Source of the DNA: Candidatus Woesearchaeota archaeon
Lineage (GTDB): Archaea > Nanobdellota > Nanobdellia > Woesearchaeales > SM23-78
Direction: 5' to 3'
DNA: 16,679 bases
Assembly: GCA_011372335.1 (NCBI GenBank)
Contig: DRSY01000049.1
Location: 1 to 16,679 of the forward strand
Shown here: piece by piece, positions 747 to 7,756 of the stretch
Position numbering within the stretch: position 1 is the stretch's first letter
How the letters are laid out: every line of letters starts with the position of its first letter
Translations under genes and position numbers: made by a program
Notes under the pieces: model-generated
The model's database searches: none
Told to the model about the DNA's origin: nothing
The model's input: only the letters and a program-made list of their open reading frames with translations

Positions 747-776
747 TATTGGAAACTTATATATTGGAAACCTATA
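747..776. repeat. Tandem 15-bp repeat in the ABCE1 promoter region
   Basis: TATTGGAAACTTATA (747-761) is followed directly by TATTGGAAACCTATA (762-776), differing at one base. Each copy ends in a TATA-like element, so the duplication may give two promoters or two regulator sites for ABCE1. Confidence 0.7.
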
Positions 777-781
777 AATAC
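771..781 (+). promoter_or_regulatory. Probable TATA box of ABCE1
   Basis: CCTATAAATAC predicts a start near 802 and a leader of about 28 nt, which would include the Shine-Dalgarno at 816-820. A second TATA-like site, TTATATAT, lies at 757-764. Confidence 0.45.
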
Positions 782-815
782 TTAGGAAGAAGCCCGCTTA
801 TTAGAAGAATGGAAT

Positions 816-820
816 GAGGT
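816..820 (+). promoter_or_regulatory. Ribosome binding site of ABCE1
   Basis: GAGGT lies 10 nt before the ATG at 831 and supports that start. This gene therefore appears to be led, unlike the leaderless mini-gene upstream. Confidence 0.5.
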
Positions 821-830
821 TTGGAATTAA

Positions 831-2567
831 ATGAAAAGAATAGCAATAGTAGATAACAACAAGCTGAAAGACATGGCTTTGAAGAAACACATACAAAGTT
901 TATGCCCTGTTAATCGGACTGGAAGTGATTGTATGTATTTCGAGGATTCAAAGCTTTTAATAGATGAGAATTTATGCATTGGATGTGGGATTTGCACTAA
1001 GCCAGCTCCAGAAGCAATACATATAGTTAACCTGCCAGAAGAATTAAAAAAAGAGCCTGTGCACCGCTACGGAAAGAACGAATTCGCTCTTTACAACCTC
1101 CCAATCCCTCTTAATAACAAGGTAGTGGGGATTATTGGGAGGAATGGTATTGGGAAGAGCACTGCTCTGAAGATTCTCACAGGGATTATAAAGCCTAATC
1201 TTGGCAGGCCAGGCAGAGAAGCAAGTTATGATGAATTAATAGATTACTTTAAGGGAAGCGAGGCTCAGGGATTCTTTGAGAAACTAAAAAAAGGAGAAGT
1301 AAGAATTAGTTATAAGCCCCAACAAGTTGATCTTATCCCGAAGCAATACAAAGGAAGTGTGAGGAGCTTATTACAAAAGGTTGATGAGAAAAAAGAGCTG
1401 CAAAGAATAGCAGAGGTCCTTGAGCTAAAAGAGGTTCTTGACCATGACATATCAAAGATTAGCGGGGGTGAACTTCAGAGAGTGGCAATAGCTGCTTGTG
1501 TGCTGAAAAAAGCTGATATTTATTTCTTTGACGAGCCAACAAGCTACTTGGATGTTAAGCAAAGGCTTAAGATTAGTGGTTTTATCCGAGGCTTGGTTAA
1601 TAGAAACACAGGAGTTATGGTTGTGGAGCATGACCTTATCCTCCTTGATTATATGGCTGATTTAATCCACTTAATGTACGGTAAGCCCTCTGCGTATGGC
1701 GTGGTTAGTCAGCCGAAATCAGCAAAGGCAGGTATTAATGTTTACTTATCAGGTTATTTAAAGGAAGAGAATGTGCGGTTCAGGGACCAAGCAATTAGTT
1801 TTGAAGCAAGGCCTCCTCTTAGTAGTAGAAAAGAGGATTTACTAACAGAATGGAATGCTTTTAGGCATAAGCTAGGAAGCTTTGAACTAGAAGCAGGTAA
1901 AGGAAACATATACAAGCATGATGTTATTGGTGTTCTTGGAGAGAACGGCATAGGGAAGACGACCTTTGTAAGAGTACTAGGAGGAGACATTAAGGGTCAT
2001 GAGCTAAAAGGATTAATGATTAGTTATAAACCCCAGTACCTTGAATCAAATGACGAATTGGTTATGAACTTCTTGCAAGAAGCCATCCAGAAGTACGAGG
2101 TTCAGCTAATCCGACCCTTAGAACTAAAGCCTTTATTCATGAGAAAACTATCAGAGCTAAGCGGTGGCGAGTTACAAAGGGTGTGGATAGCGAAGTGTCT
2201 AAGCCAGGACTCAGACTTAATCCTCATGGATGAGCCCTCTGCTTATCTTGACGTGGAGCAGAGATTAAAACTAGGCAGGATTATTAGTGAGATACTGAAG
2301 ATAACAGGAAGAAGTGCATTAATAGTAGACCACGACCTCTTATTCGTAGACACAATATCTGATAGGCTCATAGTATTTGAGGGAAAACCAGCAGTTCATG
2401 GAAGAGTAACAGGGCCCTTTCCAATGGAGGAGGGTATGAATAAGTTTTTAGAAAACATAGGTCTTACTTTTAGAAGGGATGATGAGAGTAAGAGGCCTAG
2501 GATTAATAAGCCTGGGAGTCAGAAGGATAAAGAGCAGAAGAGAAGGGGGAACTTATACTATGCGTGA
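831..2567 (+). CDS. ABCE1/Rli1 ribosome-recycling ATPase with a reduced Fe-S domain
   Basis: ABCE1 splits ribosomes after termination using two ABC ATPase domains and an N-terminal domain that normally holds two [4Fe-4S] clusters. Both ATPase halves look intact: Walker A GRNGIGKST (103-111) and GENGIGKTT (370-378), Q-loops at 164 and 402, SGGELQR at 211 and 444, DEP Walker B motifs at 234 and 467, and H-loop histidines 267 and 501. The hinge and the C-terminus (TFRRD, RPRINKPGS) are typical, and 578 residues is normal. The Fe-S domain is not. Cys25 and C-x2-C-x2-C (49, 52, 55) remain, but the first three ligands of motif one are Leu12, Leu17 and Ile21, and the fourth of motif two is Ala59. 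Together these are the ligands of one whole cluster. Start chosen at the ATG giving the conserved RIAIVD; GAGGT lies 10 nt upstream. Confidence 0.95.
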   Translation: MKRIAIVDNNKLKDMALKKHIQSLCPVNRTGSDCMYFEDSKLLIDENLCIGCGICTKPAPEAIHIVNLPEELKKEPVHRYGKNEFALYNLPIPLNNKVVGIIGRNGIGKSTALKILTGIIKPNLGRPGREASYDELIDYFKGSEAQGFFEKLKKGEVRISYKPQQVDLIPKQYKGSVRSLLQKVDEKKELQRIAEVLELKEVLDHDISKISGGELQRVAIAACVLKKADIYFFDEPTSYLDVKQRLKISGFIRGLVNRNTGVMVVEHDLILLDYMADLIHLMYGKPSAYGVVSQPKSAKAGINVYLSGYLKEENVRFRDQAISFEARPPLSSRKEDLLTEWNAFRHKLGSFELEAGKGNIYKHDVIGVLGENGIGKTTFVRVLGGDIKGHELKGLMISYKPQYLESNDELVMNFLQEAIQKYEVQLIRPLELKPLFMRKLSELSGGELQRVWIAKCLSQDSDLILMDEPSAYLDVEQRLKLGRIISEILKITGRSALIVDHDLLFVDTISDRLIVFEGKPAVHGRVTGPFPMEEGMNKFLENIGLTFRRDDESKRPRINKPGSQKDKEQKRRGNLYYA

Positions 2568-2636: not shown

Positions 2637-3497
2637 ATGAGAATAATTAAACTAAGAAAGAATAATCACGAATACTATTACTTAAAGCACTCCTTCAGAT
2701 TCCAAGGCAAAGTTATTACCAGAGAAAAATACCTTGGGAAAAAGATTCCTGAAAACATAAAAGAAATAGAACAGGCTTTTCTTGAGGAATGTAAGAAAAA
2801 AAGCATATTCAGATTATTTGAGAAAATAAAGCAAGGCTTCCGGAGAGAATGGAAAAAATATCCTGACTCAATAAAAGAAAAATTAAAAGAACAAATCACC
2901 ATCGCCTTCACTTATAACACAAATGCTATTGAAGGCTCAACCATTAGTCTGGATGAAACAAGAGAGCTAGCAGAACACAGAATATCACCTAATAAGCCTC
3001 TTAAGGATGTGAAAGAAACAGAGGCACACCTGCAACTCTTTTTGGAAATGCTTGAAAAGAAAGAAAGACTAAGCCTCAACCTAATCCTTAAGTGGCATAA
3101 AAAATTATTCAAAGAGACAAAGCCGGATATCGCGGGGAGAATAAGGGATTATAATGTAAAAGTAGGCTTTTATAAGGCACCGGACTGGCAAGACCTTAAA
3201 AAACTATTAAGAAAAATGATTCTTTTTTATAATGAAAACAAGAGGATGAACCCTGTTGAGTTAGCAGCCAGGACGCACTATAAGTTTGAGAAAATACATC
3301 CTTTTGGGGATGGGAATGGAAGAATAGGCAGAATAATAATGAATCACATCCTCTGGCATAATAAGTATCCTATACTAATAATAGAGTATAAAAAAAGAAA
3401 AGCCTACTATAAAGCCTTACAAAAAGACGAAGATAAGTTCTTCGCCTACTTTGCAAGAAGATACTTAAAAACATATGAGAGATACGTTAAGAAATGA
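2637..3497 (+). CDS. Fic-family protein (probable AMP transferase) with inhibitory helix
   Basis: Fic enzymes transfer AMP or another phosphate-containing group to target proteins. The catalytic motif HPFGDGNGRIGR (residues 221-232) is complete, with the catalytic histidine 221 and the phosphate-binding GNGR. Upstream, TNAIEG (95-100) matches the (S/T)xxxE(G/N) inhibitory motif, and its glutamate 99 would block productive ATP binding, so the enzyme is probably off by default. IAGRIRDYNV (165-174) is the usual Fic-core segment before the active site. The first 75 residues are very basic with a short beta-rich start, as in stand-alone Fic proteins with an N-terminal extension. No signal peptide. 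The last 4 nt overlap the next gene (ATGA), so the two are probably co-translated. The target is unknown. Confidence 0.9.
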   Translation: MRIIKLRKNNHEYYYLKHSFRFQGKVITREKYLGKKIPENIKEIEQAFLEECKKKSIFRLFEKIKQGFRREWKKYPDSIKEKLKEQITIAFTYNTNAIEGSTISLDETRELAEHRISPNKPLKDVKETEAHLQLFLEMLEKKERLSLNLILKWHKKLFKETKPDIAGRIRDYNVKVGFYKAPDWQDLKKLLRKMILFYNENKRMNPVELAARTHYKFEKIHPFGDGNGRIGRIIMNHILWHNKYPILIIEYKKRKAYYKALQKDEDKFFAYFARRYLKTYERYVKK

Positions 3498-4162
3498 AAG
3501 AACAAAAACTTCTTATAAGCTTATCCATCATTCTTATAGTTTTTGTATTATTCTCTGCTAGTTTCTTCATGGTATTCTTTGACAGGGGCTTCTATGATAA
3601 GAGTTTTGATAAGTACGGAGTGTATGATGAGCTTGGTGTGCTGGGTGTTAGGAATACAGTTGACTATTTAATTAATTACTTAACTAATGAAAATACTGAA
3701 ATTAATGAAATAAAGCAATTAACTATTTTTACAGAGGAAGAAAGAGCACATCTAGAGGATGTTAAGAATATAATTAATTGGCTGAAGGCTCTTAGCATAG
3801 CTTCTCTTGTACTATTATTCGCTTTTATTATTCGTCTCAGCATCTTAGAAGACTTCAACACTAGTATTAGAAGAATCTTTGTTTACAGCTCAATAACTAC
3901 TCTCATAGTTCTTGCGATTATCTTTGTGCTCAGCCTTAACTTCTCTGCGTTCTTTGAGGTATTCCATAAAATCCTGTTCCCACAAGGCAACTATGCTTTC
4001 CCTGCTCATTACCTGCTCGTAAAACTCTTTCCACAGGAACTCTTCAAGGACTTCGCAAGAAAAATGTTTTTTCATACAGCCATCCTCAGCATAATCCTCT
4101 TATTCCTAGGCTCTTCTTTTATTATTCCCTCTAATAAGCAGGCTAAGAAATCTAATAAATAA
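3494..4162 (+). CDS. DUF1461-family integral membrane protein
   Basis: This 222-residue protein has four hydrophobic segments, at about 7-29, 97-117, 127-149 and 191-211. One extramembrane loop lies between the first two, and a second before the last carries FHKILFPQGNYAFP. The loop motif FTEEERAHLEDVK (79-91), YGVYDELG and the FP(Q)GN region are what I recall of the DUF1461/TIGR01906 membrane family, whose function is not established. Its start overlaps the end of the Fic gene (ATGA). That pairing suggests a membrane partner or target for the Fic protein, though compact archaeal genomes often overlap unrelated genes. It converges on the next gene with a single base between stop codons. The C-terminus is lysine-rich and probably cytoplasmic. 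Confidence 0.7.
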   Translation: MKEQKLLISLSIILIVFVLFSASFFMVFFDRGFYDKSFDKYGVYDELGVLGVRNTVDYLINYLTNENTEINEIKQLTIFTEEERAHLEDVKNIINWLKALSIASLVLLFAFIIRLSILEDFNTSIRRIFVYSSITTLIVLAIIFVLSLNFSAFFEVFHKILFPQGNYAFPAHYLLVKLFPQELFKDFARKMFFHTAILSIILLFLGSSFIIPSNKQAKKSNK

Positions 4163-7665: not shown

Positions 7666-7756
7666 TGGACCAGGAGGGATTCGAACCCCCGATCTTCGGC
7701 TTAGAAGGCCGACGCCCTTTCTGGCTCTGAACGCATCCAGACTAGGCTACTGGTCC
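7666..7756 (-). tRNA. tRNA-Arg(UCU) with a 16-nt D-loop insertion
   Basis: The acceptor stem is GGACCAG/CTGGTCC. The anticodon stem is UCGGC/GCCGA with loop CUUCUAA, giving anticodon UCU (plus-strand 7703-7705). The T-stem GGGGG/CCCUC closes loop UUCGAAU. The base after the acceptor stem is A73, and no CCA is encoded. The D-arm is GCCU/GGGC, but its loop has 16 bases too many (7719-7734); removing them leaves a normal 75-nt tRNA. A TATA box lies at 7781-7790, about 29 nt upstream. Confidence 0.92.
7719..7734 (-). other. Probable 16-nt mini-intron in the tRNA-Arg D-loop
   Basis: GCGUUCAGAGCCAGAA interrupts the D-loop between positions 20a and 21. CUGG in the 5' exon pairs with CCAG near the 3' end of the insertion. 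Bulges AUG and AAA follow, and cutting after the second base of each gives the standard loop AGUCUGGAUA. There is hardly any inner helix, so the splice motif is relaxed. The insertion ends can shift by about one base. Confidence 0.7.

Follow-up and report, generated by a model that had tools for sequence, protein, structure and literature searches.

We found that the window analysed here, the whole stretch of 16,679 nucleotides from a Candidatus Woesearchaeota archaeon (contig DRSY01000049.1), encodes an ABCE1 that, judged from its sequence, probably works as a ribosome splitter holding one [4Fe-4S] cluster only, its N-terminal domain having been obtained ready-made by recombination within the same archaeal order (we put the probability of this reading at roughly 0.8). 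The NCBIfam equivalog model PRK13409 matched residues 1-578, the full length, with 774 bits (cut-off 469), the best PDB matches were 3j15 and 3bk7, and the last ~25 residues, the hinge 2 stretch, align with both structures, with RPR-NK, KD-EQK, RG and YYA in common. Walker A, signature, Walker B and H-loop were located at residues 103, 210, 234 and 265 in NBD1 and at residues 370, 443, 467 and 499 in NBD2 (Table 1). By its sequence the protein is an ABCE1 by descent, yet it does not have the eight cysteines that would define the family, only four of the eight ligands being present. An upstream start or extension as the source of further cysteines was excluded, since an in-frame TAA lies immediately 5' of the ATG of the ORF (831-2567).

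Table 1. Features of the ABCE1 gene and its upstream region in the window.
Feature	Coordinates	Strand	Basis or remark
Upstream stretch common to G002, not to two-cluster G001/G003	761..830	+	By-eye comparison
ABCE1/RLI gene, single-cluster variant	831..2567	+	578 aa; PRK13409 equivalog match
N-terminal Fe-S domain, one-cluster form (aa 1-66)	831..1028	+	Alignment A1 with 10 relatives
Leu12 replacing ligand Cys1	864..866	+	Codon CTG; Leu in 47/48 one-cluster rows
Ala16/Leu17, ligand Cys2 region	876..881	+	Exact equivalent uncertain (one-residue deletion)
Ile21 replacing ligand Cys3	891..893	+	Codon ATA; Ile in 46/48 one-cluster rows
Cys25, ligand Cys4, retained	903..905	+	Codon TGC; 48/48 one-cluster rows
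Cys34, extra cysteine beyond the eight ligands, retained	930..932	+	48/48 one-cluster rows
Cys49, Cys52, Cys55, ligands Cys5-7, retained	975..995	+	47/48, 48/48 and 48/48 rows
Ala59 replacing ligand Cys8	1005..1007	+	Codon GCT; Ala in 43/48 one-cluster rows
Inferred recombination breakpoint zone (about aa 60-72)	1008..1046	+	DNA identity to G002 falls to G001/G003 level
Walker A, NBD1 (GRNGIGKS)	1137..1160	+	Motif reading
Signature motif, NBD1 (ISGGE)	1458..1472	+	Motif reading
Walker A, NBD2 (GENGIGKT)	1938..1961	+	Motif reading
Signature motif, NBD2 (LSGGE)	2157..2171	+	Motif reading

Two other loci of the window deserve mention. The stretch 2637-4162 (+) holds a Fic-family protein (PF02661) and, after it, a match (PF07314, 84 bits) to Lit, the lipoprotein intramolecular transacylase, which is unexpected in an archaeon. 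At 7666-7756 (-) ARAGORN calls a tRNA-Ala(AGC); the fold shows an anticodon loop CUUCUAA, and the gene is more likely a tRNA-Arg(UCU). Compared with what we take to be the usual length, its D-arm has roughly 16 extra bases, possibly a non-canonical intron.

Cysteines of the N-terminal domain are limited to positions 25, 34, 49, 52 and 55. In the alignment with two-cluster ABCE1, ligands Cys1, Cys2, Cys3 and Cys8 are replaced and Cys4-7 are retained. Among the replacing residues named in the preliminary description, Leu12, Ile21 and Ala59 held up, being conserved in the one-cluster rows, but Leu17 has to be qualified, because the one-cluster form is shorter by one residue between Cys1 and Cys4, which leaves the Cys2 equivalent uncertain; Leu17 is also poorly conserved (Leu in 8/48 one-cluster rows). 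Barthelme et al. are said to have assigned, in 2007, Cys4-7 to the ferredoxin-like cluster and Cys1, 2, 3 and 8 to the ABCE1/Rli1-type cluster. These cluster names are in use in the available text of PMC8153317, and in crystal structures, as far as the accessible part of PMC4275035 describes them, the first three cysteines and the last bind one cluster. From this pattern we infer that one cluster is absent from the window's ABCE1. The Pfam profile Fer4_RLI, which covers the Cys1-4 motif, gave no match at E-values up to 0.1 in the window or in the one-cluster locus L035 and matched the two-cluster locus L005 (26.9 bits, cut-off 23); Fer4 over the Cys5-7 motif scored 19.9 bits in the window and 23.1 bits in L035 (cut-off 21.1). 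The earlier claim that one full ligand set was lost and the other kept, with both ATPase domains intact, was borne out by alignment and motif reading and is strengthened by the occurrence of this form of the domain in 48 genomes. It might be argued that a second metal centre is still bound, held by residues other than cysteine (e.g., Asp14, His20, Gln22) or containing a different metal, as Asp14 is found in 34, Lys18 in 38, His or Tyr at position 20 in 45 and Gln22 in 43 of the 48 one-cluster rows. We consider this quite unlikely, because three of the lost ligand positions carry aliphatic or small side chains, 16/48 rows have Tyr at position 20, and no residue set substitutes for the four cysteines.

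With a profile (A1) comprising 11 one-cluster domains, including that of the window, we searched 352 genomes of the order, 311 of which have an ABCE1 core match. The scores split: 48 of the 352 genomes reached at least 104 bits and the next one 77 bits. In a sample of the phylum (371 genomes, overlapping the order), no listed score from outside the order exceeded 66.2 bits; for occurrence outside the phylum, the sample was seven loci (L046, L048-L051, L053, L054) that carry other DPANN names or no name, all with eight cysteines. The main one-cluster form occurs in 14 of the 73 families tabulated, and six families (f1, f15, f25, f39, f82, f87) mix one-cluster and two-cluster members. The record of Archaeon GW2011_AR15 (L035, CP010425) has the same one-cluster N-terminus. 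In six of eight close pairs, the window's pair excluded, dN/dS of the one-cluster domain was 0.02-0.09 (dS was saturated in two), and it was 0.04 between the window and G002; the domain is under strong purifying selection. The preliminary description had named two findings that would speak against it, codons produced by assembly error and a second, eight-cysteine ABCE1 in the same genome. Assembly error is excluded, since the same domain is present in 48 genomes, among them the single-contig G114, and the window's genome (783 kb, 177 contigs, 74% complete) yielded no second ABCE1. That degree of completeness leaves some room for the view that the main work falls to an ordinary two-cluster ABCE1, with the one-cluster gene as a paralogue that is specialised or on its way out, and the carrier G131 gives two core matches, with a place listed for one of them. 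However, the near-complete carriers G010, G092, G114 and G127 show one core match each, which together with the purifying selection on the domain makes a paralogue highly unlikely.

A census of the ligands covered 227 N-termini with a readable anchor (6/233 had no usable N-terminus, and three further rows, G261, G301 and G317, were truncated), in a non-random sample of 48 high scorers, then the nearest in core sequence, then low one-cluster scorers and a few sequences from outside the order. The Cys1,2,3,8 set was absent in 53 of these 227. We also recovered a mirror form, in which Cys4-7 are replaced and Cys1, 2, 3 and 8 retained: Cys4 was lost along with most of Cys5-7 in 41/227 (not counting G009, which has a misplaced anchor and eight cysteines), 21 of them (one truncated) keeping Cys8 alone in the second motif and 20 keeping one cysteine more. 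Twelve of the 227 are intermediate, with Cys4 retained and one of Cys5-7 missing. Outright loss of both ligand sets was found in none of the 227 N-termini, i.e., a zero-cluster ABCE1 was not found; nearest to it is G153 (L102), without the Cys1,2,3,8 set and Cys5 and left with three ligands and the extra cysteine, and G208 is a partial case without Cys1-3 but with Cys8 retained. The extra cysteine after Cys4, present in 48/48 rows of the main one-cluster form, is absent in 36/39 mirror-form rows scored and therefore appears to belong with the Cys4-7 cluster. The Cys1,2,3,8 set is missing from at least three dissimilar sequences (the main form, G339-G342, and G328), and the matched pattern must therefore have arisen more than once. 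The preliminary description had argued that random decay would not pick a matched set, and this agrees with the recurrence of the pattern in many genomes and in both directions, with the purifying selection, and with a chance of 2/70 that a random choice of four of the eight ligands equals either matched set.

The mirror form has a patchy distribution across families (loci L108, L110, L111, L114, L116, L119, L129, L154, L167, L172). Other departures from the canonical ligands were seen as well. A group of loci (L223, L226, L238, L285-L290, L232, L228) carries one additional residue within CxxCxxC (TDAC/NDAC) and has in most cases lost Cys5, and these proteins may hold a [3Fe-4S] or an Asp-ligated cluster. 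In L123 (G264) the sole missing ligand is Cys6, and the extra cysteine is absent too. ABCE1s of two-cluster type without one ligand of the first motif were found in L017 (G024) and L133 (G212), which miss Cys2, and in L267 (G489), which misses Cys1.

The two parts of the window's gene have different relatives. Residues 1-66 are 94% identical to G002 and 47% to G001, and the ATPase core is 82% identical to G002 and 85% to G001. In a careful-method tree of the core (43 rows), the window's genus, which is mostly two-cluster, forms a clade (100/99 support) in which the window adjoins the two-cluster G001/G003; in an N-terminal tree (quick method, 69 columns) all 19 one-cluster rows form one clade (support 95). 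The genus as a single clade was rejected by the N-terminal data (p-AU 0.00076), and a single clade of the 19 one-cluster rows was rejected by the core data (p-AU 1e-102). Mapped on the core tree, the one-cluster label changes 12 times, at least nine of these changes being forced by supported branches. The cluster might have disappeared in situ, from a gene that the window's lineage inherited vertically and without recombination. Such losses seem to have happened elsewhere: G339-G342 and G328 are without the same ligand set and have different sequences, and the reverse loss of Cys4-7 shows graded intermediates. For the window we nevertheless regard loss in place as unlikely, because an alignment of its residues 1-66 with 10 one-cluster domains from other lineages has 26 invariant columns, its N-terminus is 74% identical to G011 despite 54% identity in the core, and its N-terminal residues reject a grouping with its own genus. 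Independent losses could have converged on the same domain; those of G339-G342 and G328 look quite different. Acquisition of the one-cluster domain by recombination is thus the most likely course suggested by the sequences, and the simplest account is that the 5' part of the gene was imported once or twice in the window's genus and at other times elsewhere in the order. A single import into the ancestor of G000 and G002 and two separate events are indistinguishable, because the core data are compatible with G000 and G002 as sisters (p-AU 0.445). The ~70 bases upstream of the start codon may have been part of the imported segment.

The suggestion that the one-cluster form reflects iron-sparing evolution was followed across the order with SufB/D (scored as present with two or more PF01458 matches) and SOD (PF02777), in 147 and 160 genomes, respectively, that were picked by completeness and by family contrast (some fall below 80% completeness) and from which 8 and 9 intermediates were left out. 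SufB/D was present in 47/62 single-cluster genomes vs 23/77 two-cluster genomes (Fisher 7.8e-8), the two-cluster class of this test and of that on SOD including G327 and G333, which were assigned by profile scores in the two-cluster range with their N-termini unread. By class, it was present in 21/28 genomes with the main form, 2/4 with other losses of Cys1,2,3,8, and 24/30 with the mirror form, to which G349 was assigned from a profile match on another contig. Among 11 phylogenetically independent supported pairs, taken from ABCE1 core trees and not from species trees, an average of 6.5 pointed the same way and 0.6 the opposite way (median p 0.039, range 0.004-0.69). SOD was present in 33/40 genomes without the Cys1,2,3,8 set vs 26/81 two-cluster genomes (Fisher 2.3e-7), a few of the matches being fragments and that of G121 having an internal stop; eight supported pairs for Cys1,2,3,8 losses gave an average of 4.1 the same way and 0.1 the opposite way (median p 0.125). 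A link between the mirror form and SOD was not found (14/30 vs the same two-cluster genomes, Fisher p 0.18). Within families, SOD was found in 5/6 one-cluster (one a fragment, with an internal stop) and 0/3 two-cluster members of f39 and in 5/5 and 0/2 of f15; f87 shows the opposite (0/1 and 2/3), and there is little contrast in f82 (1/1 vs 2/3) and f25 (1/1 vs 6/10).

We also tried the number of radical-SAM proteins as a measure of iron sparing. The medians were 11.5 in 18 genomes without Cys1,2,3,8, 8.5 in 20 mirror-form genomes and 21 in 27 two-cluster genomes (p 0.0024), as counts unscaled to genome size and with no more than 45 candidates scored in some genomes. This measure was rejected: seven supported pairs gave a median p of 0.25, and several members of f38/f39 have 23-45 such proteins. 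In G216, G254, G294 and other near-complete genomes, SufB/D was not found despite at least 20 radical-SAM proteins.

After phylogenetic pairing, the links to SufB/D and SOD are modest. In the window's genus, SOD was found in none of seven genomes and SufB/D in one of six, and neither was found in G000 or G002, both of which are incomplete genomes. The iron-sparing idea therefore stands only in so far as it has indirect, order-wide associations with SufB/D and SOD behind it, and the genus of the window gives it no support. As a driver in the order, pressure from oxygen or iron is plausible, if unproven; in that genus it was not seen. Neither oxygen nor iron need have played a part: with weak constraint on the domain, the cluster could have been lost by neutral drift or hitch-hiking, as suggested by the few contrasts that pairing leaves, by the missing link between the mirror form and SOD, and by the near absence of both markers from the genus. 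The raw associations are strong, however, and the losses are matched sets in both directions with no row outright without both, and we see drift as quite possible, at somewhat less than even odds.

For the preferred reading, a one-cluster ribosome splitter with an imported domain, we propose the following working model. The retained cluster would be the ferredoxin-like one, bound by Cys25, 49, 52 and 55, and the site of the other would be replaced by a shorter segment in which the conserved Leu12, Ile21 and Ala59 pack the site as protein. The domain was probably imported from a different lineage within the order, by recombination inside the gene with a breakpoint at about residues 60-72; its fold is presumably kept and ATP-driven ribosome splitting presumably still works. 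In the archaeal post-splitting complex, according to the available part of PMC7196836, the Fe-S domain lies between h44, the h5-h15 junction and uS12. In Sulfolobus numbering, the same text has Arg2, Lys15, Asn17, Glu19 and Lys59 contacting rRNA and Pro25, Arg28 and Ser29 contacting uS12, and states that loop 12-14 would clash with NBD2 upon closure (PMC7196836). The remodelled Cys1-3 segment might thus alter the face that normally touches 16S rRNA h44 and NBD2, and, by our mapping of positions, the uS12-facing Cys4-Pro-Val-Asn-Arg stretch would be unchanged. Such a form could perhaps have an advantage wherever a second, labile cluster is a burden because of oxygen or of the iron supply.

A description of a one-cluster ABCE1 was not found among the matches listed from open-access titles and abstracts, a set outside which most subscription papers lie, and no paper pairing Woesearchaeota with ABCE1 was found in that set. 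As a broader reading, to which we give even odds, either cluster would be dispensable separately as a full ligand set, but not both, the domains would move as 5' cassettes between archaeal lineages, and oxygen or iron would drive this. Natural proteins with one or the other cluster could serve as reagents to assign ribosome contacts to each cluster, and to ask whether it is only under aerobic conditions that both are required, and how much remodelling of the domain ribosome splitting tolerates. The swap, moreover, would be a case of domain exchange between lineages in a central translation factor.

Compared with two-cluster ABCE1/RLI/Rli1 (3bk7, 3j15), the window's protein shares the full-length architecture, both ATPase sites and the C-terminal stretch, but is without four of the eight ligands, has a Cys1-3 segment that is rewritten and one residue shorter, and is unmatched by Fer4_RLI. 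Both ABCE1 clusters are described, in the available text of PMC8153317, as conserved, essential and structural rather than redox-catalytic. In yeast Rli1, as far as the accessible part of an eLife paper of 2015 goes (PMC4523923), C25S and C61S hit different clusters, and each mutant alone grows without oxygen but not with it, whereas the two mutations together allow no growth. On the authors' interpretation, cluster binding persists in the single mutants as long as oxygen is absent (PMC4523923), and the mutants are therefore, on that account, weakened and not one-cluster proteins. To that extent the two systems are alike, since in yeast either hit is tolerated without oxygen and both are not, and the natural losses in the N-termini counted affect one set or the other and not both outright; they differ in that the yeast proteins are laboratory point mutants that fail in air, whereas natural lineages replace whole ligand sets. 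Single-cluster ferredoxins related to 2[4Fe-4S] ferredoxins have one ligand set of the dicluster fold absent, with protein packing instead. The same logic would apply to one-cluster ABCE1, in which protein would fill the place of the absent cluster, but those ferredoxins are electron carriers, whereas the clusters of ABCE1 are described, again in the part of PMC8153317 available, as unsuited to a redox-catalytic role.
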